From assembly GCF_000002985.6 (NCBI RefSeq), contig NC_003283.11, positions 11,842,001 through 11,906,000 of the forward strand: a stretch of 64,000 bases of DNA, read 5' to 3'. A program made the position numbers and the translations under genes. This document shows positions 20,071 through 49,186 of the stretch, piece after piece. The stretch's first letter is position 1. Every line of letters starts with the position of its first letter. This stretch comes from Caenorhabditis elegans (taxonomy: Eukaryota > Nematoda > Chromadorea > Rhabditida > Rhabditidae). The notes under the pieces are model-generated. The model was not told where the DNA came from and did not search any database. It saw only the letters and a list, made by a program, of their open reading frames with translations.

Positions 20071-21751
20071 TTGAATCATCATGACGTTTTTTATGTTTTG
20101 TTTTGCTACGGGTACTGTTTACTTTGACGATTTTCTCTGAAATGCAATTCTTCTCAAATGTATTCTCAAACAACCAAAACAATATTTTGATCGTCGGGTT
20201 CGTTTTTTTTGTAACTCTGTACTTCCCCTTGTGATCTTGATGTGTAGAATTTGTTAATTTGAATTAAATAATAAATAAATGATGTGATCAAAATAATTCC
20301 ACAAACACGGAACAAGGACAAGTCAGCACAAAGAAGAAACGGGTCGTAAACACTAAAAATGAGTCAGAACACAATCAAAGAGGATTATGATGTCAATGAC
20401 TTGAAATGAGTTAAAGAATTAAAGAGCACAAAATGACAGGAATTTCATCATTTTCAATGACTAAAAAACTTCAAACATTTTATTAGACGAAAAATTATTA
20501 GTTAAAATTTGAAAGAAACCTTTCTGTAACAGAAAACGTAAAGTTCAAAACTAGTTTCAAATATATTTATTAGAATACCGTTTTTGGTAAAAAATGAAAT
20601 ATGTGATGGCTTAGATGTTTGAGAAAAATGTTTGAAAATGTTTCCAGATTTTTTTTCAGGTTGTATAATGTACATTTGAAAAGTTAAAATTTATAAATAA
20701 ATATCTTTAAAACTGTAGTAAAGTTCCTGTTTTCTCACAAATACAACTATAATATCTCAAAGGAAAGTTAACTAAACTATTTTATAATAAAACCAAAAAT
20801 TGTTTCACATACATCTTTTTTATATAGTTTATTGAGAATTTACATGATTTGGAGGAACTATACATACGTACATTGCCGTACGGTAGTACCCATCCAAAAT
20901 CTGACTCGTGTCTGTTTGAAAATGTTTTACAGTTTTTTAAAAGATTTGGCGAGGCCCGTAACGACATTTTCAATTTAGAAAAAGTGTTGTAAATAAAAAG
21001 GTAAATGGAAAAATTTACATCGCAAGTTCAAAATGTGAATTACTGTAGTTGTTGATCATTTTTTAGAATCAGATAGGCCTTATCATACTAATTTCAATGA
21101 AATTGTTTCATTTTTCCAATATTCAAGTCAACAAGAATAATATCAGCTATAAATTAGGTCAATTCAAGTAGTAAACAATATATGTCAGAATGGTTGTTTC
21201 AATCATTTCGAAACAATCTACTTGCACTAACACAGTGAGTTTACAAAAATAAGAGAGCTTACAGGGGACCTCATGGGAAAAGAAGAGAGAAAGTGCTAAA
21301 AAATATTACAGGAACACAGAATTCCGAGAATGCGCATTGCGCATGTGTGCACAATATCTCGTGTGGAAACTACAGCAATTCATTAAATGACTACTGCAAC
21401 GCTTGTGTCGATTCACGGCATTACTGTATTTTTGCTTGCGAGATATTCTGCGCGTCAAATATGTTGTCCAATATGCATTCCGAGAATTTTGTGTACCCGT
21501 AACACAATGAGAATATCAAATTCAAAATTGAACATTGCATAGTTTAGTTTCAATCATGTTCTTTTCAGAAAAAAGGGGGGGGGGGGTATAGCCTACACGA
21601 GTGACTAAATTAAATTGTTGTAATTCGTTGAAAACTGTTTGCACTGCCCGCTATCAGTGCAAATGTACTCTACCAAACATATATCATATTCCCGATTGTG
21701 CGCGTGTTAAGAGACAAATTAAAAAAACAACATATTATTTTGCAGGTAATC
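20071..21751. other. intergenic, F-box gene 3' end to Lon-like gene
   Basis: AATAAA-type poly(A) signals for the F-box gene lie at about 20265-20280. The rest is AT-rich and non-coding, with a palindromic repeat (21309-21501) and a run of 12 G (21575-21586). No coding exon was recognised. Confidence 0.5.
21309..21501. repeat. palindromic MITE-like repeat
   Basis: The ends are inverted copies of each other: the left end reads GGAACACAGAATTCCGAGAA and the right end reads TTCCGAGAATTTTGTGTACC. The middle carries ACTACAGCAATTCATTAAAT and CTTGTGTCGATTCACGG, shared with the partial copy at 9391-9517. It has no coding capacity and is best read as a non-autonomous DNA transposon. Confidence 0.65.
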
Positions 21752-22913
21752 ATGCCTGCGCGTGCTGGTGGTAATCCTAGTCAATTGAATACGAGTATCC
21801 ACGCGACTCGAGCACCAGCGGATCCAGCAATAAAATCGATATCTAAACTGGAATTTGGAAAGATTTGGGTGAATGGATTGGGTGTTATTAAACCCAATGG
21901 AGAACAAAAAACATCGGCGGAAAAAGGTCCGATTGTCCCTATCTGTGGGTTTTAAAGCATTCCCAAAAAATGTCGGAATTTTTTTTTCGATTTTCACCCG
22001 AGGTTCCGGAACATTTTTTCTCAAAAAATTGAGTTTCCCTCCAAATTATTTTTTTTTTAAATTGAATTTATCTCCAAATTGTGATGAAGTCACAAAATGG
22101 ATGTGGCCAGTACACTTCTTGCGTGAATAAGACTACAGTCTAAAAATCTCTGAGGTTAAACTATGTAGGGATTCAAAACTGCGCTTCATATCTAGTAACA
22201 TGACAATTTATTTTTCAGTTTGCACATTTTTCAAGTTCAAAACCGACTCGTTTCATTGTTACGCATTGGAAAGTATTGGAGAAGACATGAAAGAGGGTGC
22301 GAGACTGGCTTATGACGCTGTTACATTTAATCTCTGTTCAATGGGAGTATCGCAACATCCAAGAGAGGTCCGTGTTCAATATTATGCCGAGTCTCACTTA
22401 GACAGAAAATCTGCTATTTTGACGACTGCACTTGGGCTGATGGCTGCATTCACAGGCATGATCATTCCAGATTACATTGCGGCCACTGGAAAACTCGATT
22501 TACCTGGAAATGTTTATTCTTTAAGTTCTTGATACTTATAAAATAACTATCATTATGTTATATTCAACATCGTTCTCGAAAAATTTGCAAATTTTAGAAC
22601 ACATTTTCCTCCATACGTTTTGATAACTGGTACAACATAAGTATATTTTCAGGTAGGTGATATTGAACTCAAAATTGATGCTGCGATCCAGAATAAGAAG
22701 ACTATAGTAATTGTGCCAAAGGATAATTTTGAATCGATTTCCAAGGATATGAAAGCACAGATCAATGGTGTACCGGTGTCGCATTTGCTAGAAGCTTTCC
22801 AAGTGGTGTCACAACAAGGAAAAAAAAAGATAATTGTCAATTGTTCCCACTCTTTTTTTGCCAAAATGTCTAGAATTTCTTTGTATTGTGCAATTGAAAT
22901 TGATCAAAAATAA
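21752..22913 (+). CDS. stand-alone Lon (S16) protease-like domain protein
   Basis: Three exons (21752-21926, 22219-22524, 22657-22913) join in phase to 245 aa. The protein matches only the proteolytic domain of Lon and has no AAA+ or substrate-binding region. The block IGEDMKEGARLAYDAV matches Lon LGDVMKES-type helices. DRKSAILTTALGL aligns ungapped with the Lon DGPSAG serine motif, with Ser at residue 123. TGKLDLPGNVYSLSDIELK aligns ungapped with the Lon TGxVxLxGxVxPxGGxxEK motif, with Lys at 166. The Ser-Lys spacing of 43 equals that of E. coli Lon (Ser679-Lys722). The glycines around the serine (G-P, and G after S-A) and the GG before the lysine are replaced, so activity is uncertain. There is no signal peptide. 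The weak donor GTCCGA after 21926 and the acceptor of exon 3 are the least certain junctions. Confidence 0.65.
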
Positions 22914-24673
22914 AGAGTGGAAATACATGAATAAGTTAAAGCCCAGACATTATACCGAGATTGATAATAATCATACAAAGATCGATAATAAACATACGGA
23001 AAATGAATTATCATCTGAAAAGTTGATTAGTTAGAACATGAAATTGCCAATGTGCGGGTGTCAGGATGATGAATGACAGTAATAGACAAAAGTATTGAAC
23101 TTGCATAGAAAAATAAGACTCATTTTGCTAATTTGTTATAGAACTTACTCTGTTTTACTCTGTTTAGTACTCTGTTTGTGAAAAAGTGTCTTCGTGTTTT
23201 GATTTTGCACTTCCACCAGATGAACTCGGTTTTGGTTCGAGTTTTACTATTTTTGTCTATTTTGAAAAAATGGTCAGTGTCTTTTCACCCTGAAATGTTT
23301 TTCTCAGAAAATTTGAATTTTTCGTTTCGCTTCGTTCTCCGAGAATTTTTTTCCCTGATCAAGCTACGTTCTGAAAAGACAACACAAATTTCATAGGATT
23401 ATAGGATTATTGTTTGGGTTTTATTGCCGAAATTTCTGAATGCCGCGCCGCCCTGAACGGAATCACTTCTCCGGATATCGTTAAGAAGCTCGGTGTCGGG
23501 AAATCTGTGGTTAATCGAACTCTGATCCGGTTCAGAGAGCTTGCGACTTTGATGGGCAGTGTCCTCTAACCAGTAAGTATTCACAATTTCAGTCATCCGC
23601 CCGATATTGTTTCTTTTTAGTTTGTTCAGGAAACAAATGGATAAATACCGGAAAAAATAAAGTTTTGTGGGTTGTCAAAAATCTTCAAGAAATTGTATGA
23701 AATTCAATTACAAATTATTGCGATCTATAGATGTATAAAATTATAATTGGTCAAGCTCGAATCACGATCGAAATAAGTTTTTGGGAAAGTTCAGGATTCA
23801 TAACTTGAGTTTGGTCGAACAATTATGGAAAATTTCAGGTTTTGTGTAGGTCTTTTTCGTTTTGGAAATTATAGATAAATTTGGCAAAGTATTGTTCGAA
23901 TGTTCGTTATTATTGTCGTGGAGCATATGAATAAGCTTATTCTTACAAAGGTTTTTTCTCCAACACAAAGTGCATATTATATATGTAGATATCAGGGATC
24001 GAGCAACTGGGGTGTTTATGGAATACCAAATAAATTAAAAAATAAAAACTTTTGCAAAAACCCCAATTTTAATTAAATTTCCCATTGCTTCGTCATATTT
24101 CAAGAAAGTACATTTCTTTCCTATTTTCTCTTATTGCTGTTTCTCTTTGGAGCAGCTTCCAAATTGGTTTTCATGATACTTTTTTCTCATACCCATCATC
24201 ACATGACCGGATTTTCTTTTCATTCCAGCAACATTTTTGGTTAAAAAAAAACAGAAAGTTCTTCTTCTTCTTCTAGTGACTGCTTCTTTCTGCCTAAAAA
24301 TCGGATGGTTCGAATTTCCTCTCGAAACTTGATACGCTGATGTGCGCACACCACAAAATGGTTCGCAACCAGTTTTGTGGAACATAAAATCATCGGAAAT
24401 GTCCGACAAATTGATGGCGTCATCTCGAAACATTAATGAAAGGCCATAATACTTTATTTACAAACAAATAAATACATGTTTTAAATCAAAATAATATAAA
24501 GATCGTAGAAAAGAGTAACCCGTATACAACCGAAATGGAAAAATGATAAATTGAAAATTAGAATATAAAGTATGTTGATCATAAGTATCACCAACATCGG
24601 AAATATAAAATTATAACCGAATACAACGTTTAGAAGAGATAGAAAGCTGAAATATTCGATTGAATTGAAATCA
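22914..24673. other. intergenic, with one transposase fossil
   Basis: The Lon-like gene ends on the left and the GPCR on the right, the two genes being convergent. Apart from the helix-turn-helix fragment at 23423-23569 it holds no credible exons. A minus-strand open frame at 24131-24433 has no splice support or recognisable domain. Confidence 0.5.
23423..23569 (+). pseudogene. Tc1/mariner-type transposase helix-turn-helix fragment
   Basis: A 48-codon frame reads RAALNGITSPDIVKKLGVGK then SVVNRTLIRFRELAT and stops. This is the pattern of the first DNA-binding helix-turn-helix of Tc1/mariner/IS630 transposases (R-x-x-I..G.S...IA+.L.+.+STV.R...R+.E.G). The codons are GC-richer than the flanks. 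There is no ATG in this frame and no DDE domain after it, so it is a fossil, or an exon captured from an element. Confidence 0.5.
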
Positions 24674-46295: not shown

Positions 46296-47437
46296 ATGAC
46301 CGTCGAACTTCCATCCACTCAACGTGCTCTTGTCTTCGATACCTGGAATGGACCACTTGAAGTCCGACAAGTTCCAGTCCCATCTCCAGCTGATGATGAG
46401 ATTCTTGTCAAGATTGAATACTCTGGAATTTGCCATTCTGATCTTCACGTATGGCTCGGAGATTTGAAAGATATGAGCGTTTGCCCATTGGTTGGAGGAC
46501 ACGAAGGAGCTGGAAGTGTTGTTCAAATAGGAAAGAATGTTACTGGATGGCAACTTGGAGACAAAGCTGGAGTCAAGGTTTAAAACTGTTAAATTTCATT
46601 TCCAATTTCTTAAATTTAAGCTCATGAACTTCAACTGCCTCAACTGCGAATTCTGTAAGAAAGGCCACGAGCCACTCTGCCACCACATCCAGAACTATGG
46701 GTTCGATCGTTCTGGAACTTTCCAGGAGTACCTCACTATACGTGGAGTTGATGCCGCCAAAATCAACAAGGATACCAATCTCGCCGCTGCTGCTCCAATT
46801 CTCTGTGCAGGAGTCACAGTCTACAAGGCCCTGAAGGAGTCGAACGTTGCTCCAGGACAAATCATTGTGCTTACTGGAGCCGGAGGTGGTCTCGGATCTC
46901 TTGCTATTCAATATGCCTGTGCTATGGGAATGAGAGTTGTCGCAATGGATCACGGAAGCAAAGAAGCTCATTGCAAAGGACTTGGAGCTGAATGGTTCGT
47001 CGATGCATTTGAAACTCCAGATATTGTGTCTCACATTACCAAATTGACTGAGGGAGGACCACATGGAGTTATCAACTTTGCTGTTGCAAGAAAACCAATG
47101 GAACAAGCTGTTGAATACGTCAGAAAGCGTGGAACCGTTGTTTTCGTCGGTCTTCCAAAGGATTCAAAGGTGCCTTTTAAATAATATTTGGATTTAAAAT
47201 TATTGTTCAATGTTCCAGGTTACTTTCGACACCACTCCATTCATCTTCAATGCTATCACAATCAAGGGTTCAATCGTAGGATCTCGTCTTGACGTAGATG
47301 AAGCTATGGAATTCGTTACCCGCGGAATTGTCAAGGTTCCATTGGAGCTTGTAAAACTCGAAGACGTTCCAGCTGTCTACCAAAGAATGCTTGACGGAAA
47401 GATCAACTCTCGTGCCGTCGTTGACTTCTCCTTGTAA
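46296..47437 (+). CDS. sodh-1: zinc-dependent alcohol dehydrogenase
   Basis: This is a medium-chain alcohol dehydrogenase that oxidises alcohols such as ethanol with NAD(P)+; worm SODH-1 is linked to ethanol metabolism and dauer/longevity expression programs. Exons 46296-46577, 46621-47169 and 47219-47437 join to 349 aa, the recalled SODH-1 length. The catalytic zinc ligands are in GICHSDLH (Cys46) and GGHEGAG (His69), with a third at Cys156 (LCAGVTVYKA). The structural zinc lobe has four Cys in CLNCEFCKKGHEPLC (100, 103, 106, 114). The Rossmann nucleotide motif is TGAGGGLGS (179-187). It closely resembles yeast ADH1-type enzymes. It lies tail-to-tail with its paralogue, with 281 bp between stop codons. 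Confidence 0.92.
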
Positions 47438-47718: not shown

Positions 47719-49186
47719 TCATCGCATTGAAAAATCGACAACAACACGAGAAGTGACCTTCCCGTCTTTCATTCGTTGATAGACACTTGGAACATCTTCG
47801 AGTTTTACAAGTTCTATTGGAACATGCACAATTCCACGAGTAATAAAATCGATTGCTTCATCAACATCCATGCGTGATCCAACAATTGATCCCTTCACAG
47901 TTATTTCATTGCAAATTAGTGAAAGTGTATCAAGGGGAATCTGGAAAAAGTAAAAATGAAAAATGTATGATTCTCGGAAACTAGAAAGTCTAAAATTTGA
48001 AAAGAAAAGTACATATGTATATTGTTTCAAGATAACAAAGTGTATGAAATCTCAACATTTGAATCTTTTTCTTTAGAAAATGACTGACTGAATACCAGAA
48101 TAACAAATTGTTCTAGGGTTCTTAATTTCAAAATTTATATAGAAATAGCCGCAAATTTGAGAATCCAGCAATTTCCGATTTCTTAAAATTTTTCGAAAGA
48201 ACTCACGAATGATCCGAGTTTTGACTAAGAAAATCATTATTACCGTTCCATCTTTTGGAAGACCAACAAACACCACGGTCCCTCTTTTTCTGACATATTC
48301 CAAAGCATATTCCATTGGCTTTTTGGCTGCTGCAAAACTAACAACACCATGTGCTCCTCCATTCGTTAATTTTCGAATATGAGCCACAATGTCTGGGGTA
48401 TCAAAAGCATCGACGAACCATTCAGCTCCAAGATTTCTGCAGTGATCTTCTTTGCTAATATGATCAACAGCAACAACTCTCATTCCCATTGCTTTTGCGT
48501 ATTGAATTCCAAAAGATCCTAATCCTCCTCCAGCACCCGTTAGTACAACTATTTGGCCTGGTTTCACATTTGTTGCTTTCAGGGATTTATATGCAGTTAC
48601 TCCACCACATAATACTGGAGCAGCTGCTGCGAGATTTGTGTCATTCGAAACTTTAATGGCATCAATATCCCGAATAGTTAGATATTCTTGAAAGGTTCCA
48701 TGGCGGTCTATTCCGTAGTTTTGGATATGATCACAAAGCGGTTCGTGTCCTGTTTTACAGTATTCACAATTTAGGCAATTTGCGTTGATAAGCTGGAAAA
48801 TGAGTTATTAATGTTTATGAGATTTTCAATAAATTTTGAAATTTTGGAAATAATTAAATTTTGTTCATATGCAAAAACCTCAAATATGTTTTCAAAAATA
48901 CCTTGATTCCTGCTCGATCACCAATGTTCCATCCTTTAACTTTTGAGCCAATAGTCACAACAGTTCCAGCACCTTCATGCCCTCCAATTAAAGGACAAAT
49001 GGAAGCATATTCAAAATCACCTTCCCACGTATGAAGATCAGAATGGCAAATTCCAGAATATTCGATTTTCACTAAAAGTTCATTTTCTTGCGGTTGTGGA
49101 ACTGAAACTTGTCGAACTTCGAGAGGTCCTCCATATTTTTCAAATATTAAAGCACTTTGCGTGGCAGGAATATTAGCTGATGACAT
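47719..49186 (-). CDS. sodh-2: zinc-dependent alcohol dehydrogenase, paralogue
   Basis: Exons 49186-48902, 48792-48244 and 47940-47719 join in phase to 351 aa. Exon borders fall at the same codons as in sodh-1, and the middle exon has the same length (549 nt). The catalytic zinc motif GICHSDLHTWEGD, GGHEGAG, the structural lobe CLNCEYCKTGHEPLC and the nucleotide motif TGAGGGLGS are all intact. ATG at 49186 is chosen because the upstream in-frame codons lack an ATG and the TATA box is only 44 bp away. It is an inverted duplicate of sodh-1. Confidence 0.9.

Follow-up and report, generated by a model that had tools for sequence, protein, structure and literature searches.

What is a Lon protease domain without a motor doing in an animal genome? 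Animal Lon is a motor-protease of mitochondria and peroxisomes, and the question is raised by a locus in a 64,000-nucleotide stretch of Caenorhabditis elegans DNA (contig NC_003283.11, positions 11,842,001 to 11,906,000 of the forward strand; hereafter, this whole stretch is "the window"), for which an initial annotation had proposed a stand-alone Lon-type protease acting either as an ATP-independent peptidase or as a pseudo-enzyme. Judged by its sequence, this C. elegans locus encodes a Lon protease (S16) domain that has no AAA part; the single domain without AAA module stands as proposed, but the gene is not a singleton and represents one member of a gene family. The account we favour, with somewhat more confidence than doubt, is that the last exons of a Lon gene (likely lonp-2) were duplicated and gave rise to an AAA-less family, in which the better-kept copies may be peptidases and the window copy probably no longer acts as a protease.

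A Lon protease domain without its motor

The 245-amino-acid open reading in three exons from the initial annotation is present in the window DNA, but the two isoforms deposited at this locus, P0001 (265 amino acids) and P0002 (217 amino acids), add a 5' exon to it (21190-21234, MVVSIISKQSTCTNT, with the donor ACA|GTGAGT). Once the deposited protein sequences were placed by hand on the window DNA, the exons of P0001 were found at 21190-21234, 21746-21944, 22219-22511 and 22653-22913, all on the forward strand. The second of these (ATG at 21752, placed by spliced alignment) includes the N-terminal part and the first strands of the protease (P) domain, and ends with VPI in phase 1, so that core intron 1 (21945-22218) begins immediately behind an Ile conserved in every row of the family alignment A3. 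The third exon contains the putative catalytic Ser codon (22410-22412) and stops at 22367 in P0002, the serine block being thereby spliced out, while the last exon (stop included) provides the putative catalytic Lys codon (22671-22673) and the remaining P domain behind an acceptor, TTTTCAG|GTAGG, used by both isoforms. The junction initially placed at 22524/22657 was not recovered: the deposited isoforms instead join 22511 (P0001) or 22367 (P0002) to 22653.

The proposed homology to the Lon S16 domain is confirmed by profile searches, as the initial three-exon model matches Lon_C (PF05362) with an E-value of 9.7e-8 and 32.3 bits (curated cut-off 21.1), and P0001 reaches 27.1 bits; P0002 matched no Pfam family. 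The absence of an AAA+ motor was likewise upheld, with Lon_C the sole Pfam family found for the 265 residues of P0001 at E-values up to 1. Upstream, the longest forward-strand frame wholly within 21000-21745 is 87 amino acids long. Structure prediction (AlphaFold2) yielded the expected S16 fold for P0001, with a predicted local distance difference test score (pLDDT) that exceeds 90 in some core regions, and the best sequence-profile matches in the PDB were the P domains of archaeal LonB (1xhk and 1z0e), CalpL (7qda) being also matched. Among the hhalign comparisons, that of alignments A1 and A5 is circular (common members) and that involving A6 is the clean one.

The putative catalytic residues, S146 and K186 of P0001 (S123 and K166 of the initial model), occupy columns invariant across 48 aligned proteins. 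The dyad spacing of 43 residues first noted holds for the initial reading (Ser123/Lys166), but because the deposited junctions differ from 22524/22657, it is 40 in P0001, and the Ser is absent from P0002. As also first noted, the Ser has lost its flanking glycines: the motif is R-K-S-A-I in the window protein vs. G-P-S-A-G in all 45 Lon rows, with R144 and I148 of P0001 replacing the two Gly.

Known systems resemble the window protein in part. Archaeal LonB is membrane-inserted and carries an AAA+ module, and has a GDSA motif in place of the DRKSA of the window protein. The Lon domain of CalpL has no AAA motor of its own but is joined to a SAVED sensor, unlike P0001, which has no further Pfam domain; CalpL is a Lon-SAVED effector (PMC11417357). 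LonC (MtaLonC) shares with the window protein a Lon P domain without ATPase function and degrades unfolded substrates without ATP, but is 719 amino acids long with a large N-terminal part devoid of canonical AAA+ motifs (PMC3391209), whereas the window protein is 265 amino acids long and consists of the P domain only. Such a large AAA-like N-terminal remnant is not seen in the P0001 model, in which the first predicted strand starts at residue 51 of 265.

A gene family and its possible origin

The C. elegans genome (100.3 Mb, 7 contigs) was searched with protein queries, which give lower bounds, followed by spliced alignment. Overall, at least 14 family copies or remnants were detected, window gene included. 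Taking contigs C1-C5 to be chromosomes I-V, these comprise the inverted, nearly identical pair L018 and L019 as well as L022 (P0003), L023, L024, L025 and L026 (P0006) on chromosome II, L020 and L015 on chromosome IV, L028, L029 and L021 besides the window gene on chromosome V, and L030 on chromosome I. In five of the 14 (window gene, L018, L022, L025 and L026), the Lon dyad positions are occupied by both Ser and Lys. The dyad positions are Thr/Met in L023, Ser/Ser in L024, Ser/Met in L029, and Ser/Met in L028, which has two stops in addition; L019 is without its last exon, that of L020 is degenerate, and L015, L030 and L021 are fragments. The C-terminus of the window gene reaches ~29 residues past the end of L018.

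In a tree including nine of the 14 copies, the family forms one side of a branch with a support of 99/99, and the Lon_C cut-off was passed by P0001, P0003, L018, L025, L023 and L029 among nine proteins given to Pfam. Nearly identical copies aside, L022 and L025 form the only pair close enough for substitution rates to be measured, and this pair displays 0.21 non-synonymous (dN) and 0.66 synonymous (dS) substitutions per site, a divergence that fits purifying selection; the remaining tested pairs were at or near saturation at synonymous sites. L018 and L019 (chromosome II, 7.3645-7.3750 Mb) are 99.5% identical over 766 bases, ~5 kb apart and inverted, and constitute, by their sequence, a recent inverted duplication.

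On L026 (chromosome II, ~2.06 Mb) lies P0006, i.e., NP_494169.3, deposited as "F-box B protein". Pfam found neither an F-box nor Lon_C in this protein, and the locus was detected by the P0003 query (E-value 4.2e-7) and has intron 2 as well as both dyad columns in common with the family. The deposited name is possibly wrong. The E-value of P0006 in the A3 profile search is circular, as A3 already contained the L026 reading. That search scored 7997 candidates, of which the best 120 of 2642 were considered, and is no census since P0001, a row of A3, was absent there.

Other searches had a shorter reach. A genome-wide search with Lon_C missed most family members; its 6 matches fell in the lonp-1-like gene, the lonp-2-like gene and a single exon of contig C4. 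A single-sequence protein search retrieved 2 of 324 candidates, both of them the C. elegans isoforms of this locus, and a protein profile search 5 proteins, adding P0003 and two L024-matching pieces from a 2600-base contig. Two further loci, L027 (E-value 1.2) and L031 (0.37), were rejected as family copies because their matches were too weak. No orthologue in other nematodes was seen in the protein searches, the word-based prefilter of which may miss diverged ones. We found no account of the family in the literature searched, and the terms "paralog" and "lonp-2" are absent from PMC9025075.

The origin of the family was approached through its introns. Core intron 2 is in phase 0 within GxVxx|(V/I) in nine paralogues, and core intron 1 lies in phase 1 directly behind the conserved Ile, as seen in the window gene, L018, L019, L020, L025 and P0006/L026 (as deposited). 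The lonp-2-like gene L017 (G000:C3), which we take to be lonp-2 from its gene position and tail, has two P-domain introns, at VMPI(1)E and GHVLP|IGG (DNA read by hand), which are exactly the family positions and phases; the lonp-1-like gene L016 has no intron at either position. We estimate the probability of two such matches by chance to be of the order of 1e-5, if introns are uniform over ~555 positions. These shared positions and phases point to a duplication of the last exons of lonp-2, which suggests that the family may derive from this peroxisomal Lon gene. Beyond both introns, LONP-2 and the window protein have an S16 P domain in common, but LONP-2 ends in LAKL, a peroxisomal-type tail, and includes the canonical KDGPSAG and GGVKEK, and the window protein has neither this tail nor these motifs.

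Probable decay of the window copy and competing explanations

Nine paralogues (L018, L020, L022-L026, L028 and L029) retain the exons on either side of intron 2, and all of them have a GT donor for it at the same codon boundary (GTAAGT, GTACGT, GTGAGT or GTAATT). The window gene reads TTAAGT there (22521-22526), a lost 5' splice site. This donor is confirmed by the deposited P0003 and P0006 for L022 and L026. The GT donors of P0001 and P0002 lie 9 and 153 bases, respectively, upstream of the ancestral donor position, of which the former makes the pre-Lys loop 3 residues shorter and the latter removes the Ser. In addition, the Gly two residues before the Ser, kept in the 45 Lon rows and in the eight other copies with a Ser block read without stop (L018, L020, L022-L026 and L029), is an Arg in the window copy, and the Gly two residues after the Ser is also replaced. 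Given the loss of these flanking Gly and of the donor, and isoforms that shorten the loop or drop the Ser, we favour the pseudo-enzyme for the window copy among the two alternatives initially raised, the peptidase option fitting the better-kept paralogues (P0003, L018, L025 and P0006). The window copy is then probably a weak or dead enzyme with little or no catalysis, and probably either a pseudo-enzyme or a gene in the course of being lost. As the frame is open across the whole domain, this loss of function, if it occurred, would be recent.

Mechanistically, we propose that the duplication of the last exons (most likely those of lonp-2) would have left behind the N-domain, the AAA+ motor and the peroxisomal tail, and that the copies would then have spread and diverged fast. 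If working, P0003, L018, L025 and P0006 would be ATP-independent Ser-Lys peptidases acting on loose polypeptides, which we infer by likeness to LonC. In the window copy, the loss of the ancestral donor would have led to a shortened dyad loop or to a Ser spliced out.

Several results weigh against this account. The AlphaFold2 model of P0001 has a mean pLDDT of only 69, and its S16 fold was helped along by an input alignment holding 45 Lon proteins; P0006 has no Lon_C match and L024 falls under the cut-off. Intron 1 is missing from L022, and L023, L024, L028 and L029 gave no resolved intron 1. In the tree, the family groups with archaeal LonB against the LonA types (support 97/96) and not with LONP-2, and in topology tests a grouping with LONP-2 was borderline (p-AU 0.065) and one with LONP-1 not rejected (0.225). 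The family profile gave its lowest scores among 14 references to the two LONP-2 rows (38 bits each, vs. 50-70 for the other 12). As for decay, the spliced aligner permits GT-AG introns only, which means that a GT was demanded in the paralogues, though not its place, and the window frame is open over ~240 codons at 26-37% identity to its relatives, a sign of its having been maintained until recently. Terminal branches of up to 5.4 changes per column weaken the contrary signal of the tree, and because of these very long branches we gave more weight to the introns.

The same tree and profile scores, in favouring LonB and bacterial Lon over LONP-2, would suit a horizontal transfer from an archaeal-type LonB or a bacterial Lon with introns gained afterwards, but both core introns match the lonp-2 P-domain introns in position and phase, and we regard such a transfer as quite improbable. 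We consider it unlikely that the window protein works as an ATP-independent peptidase, which would tolerate the shorter loop and the lost glycines and cut unfolded peptides like LonC: the Ser and Lys columns are retained, the frame is open through the whole domain, the S16 fold is predicted with pLDDT >90 in core parts, and LonC offers a precedent for ATP-free degradation of unfolded substrates by a Lon domain (PMC3391209), but R144 and I148 stand where every Lon row has Gly, 3 residues are missing from the loop of P0001, and P0002 has no Ser. The whole family could also be non-catalytic, its products joining Lon rings or other partners as subunits that bind peptides or act as poison; in some copies, the dyad would then be kept by descent only. 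Consistent with this, L023, L024 and L029, with a readable P domain, lost Ser or Lys while their spliced core remained stop-free. However, the five copies with both residues retain them though most neighbouring Lon positions changed, and the LAKL tail of LONP-2 is absent from P0001 and P0003, so that these proteins need not meet LONP-2; we deem this explanation improbable.

Going beyond the duplication of lonp-2 exons favoured here, it is tempting to speculate that Caenorhabditis turned peroxisomal Lon tail exons into a fast-evolving family of stand-alone Ser-Lys peptidases of the cytosol or nucleus, such as arise under conflict with pathogens or selfish elements, and that birth-and-death turnover made the window gene a casualty at strain level, its splice site lost beside the active site; we regard this scenario as rather doubtful. 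A multi-copy motor-less Lon family would put the S16 fold to a new use in an animal, and would do so in a model worm in which every copy can be deleted. The window copy offers a testable case of gene decay, as it has lost a donor and is represented by two deposited isoforms, of which P0002 lacks the catalytic Ser.

Introns and neighbourhood of the window gene

By homology, core intron 2 of the window gene spans 22521-22652 (forward strand; phase 0 in the paralogues and in the lonp-2-like gene) and resembles intron 2 of L020, L022 and L025. It is more conserved than the adjoining exons, with 78-83% best local identity to these three introns over 60-116 bases, while 61-76% of the comparable four-fold sites differ between the window gene and the same copies. 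Between L022 and L025, intron 2 is 94% identical and 16 of 69 four-fold sites differ; no similarity to the window intron 2 was seen in L023 and L026. A dispersed repeat was not supported, as two genome searches (very common words skipped) matched family loci only, and an intronic RNA was rejected, with no Rfam match in 20900-23600 and a consensus structure of three introns that folds weakly (-3.5 kcal/mol). Part of intron 1 matches 8 other loci (9 stretches), so this intron holds a repeat.

Downstream, a short open frame without Pfam match (23405-23566) resembles the helix-turn-helix of a mariner-type transposase. Farther away in the window are two open frames of zinc-type alcohol dehydrogenases in opposite orientation (46531-47181 on the forward and 48076-48804 on the reverse strand), and further frames match the vinculin, sulfate permease and spectrin families (Pfam).
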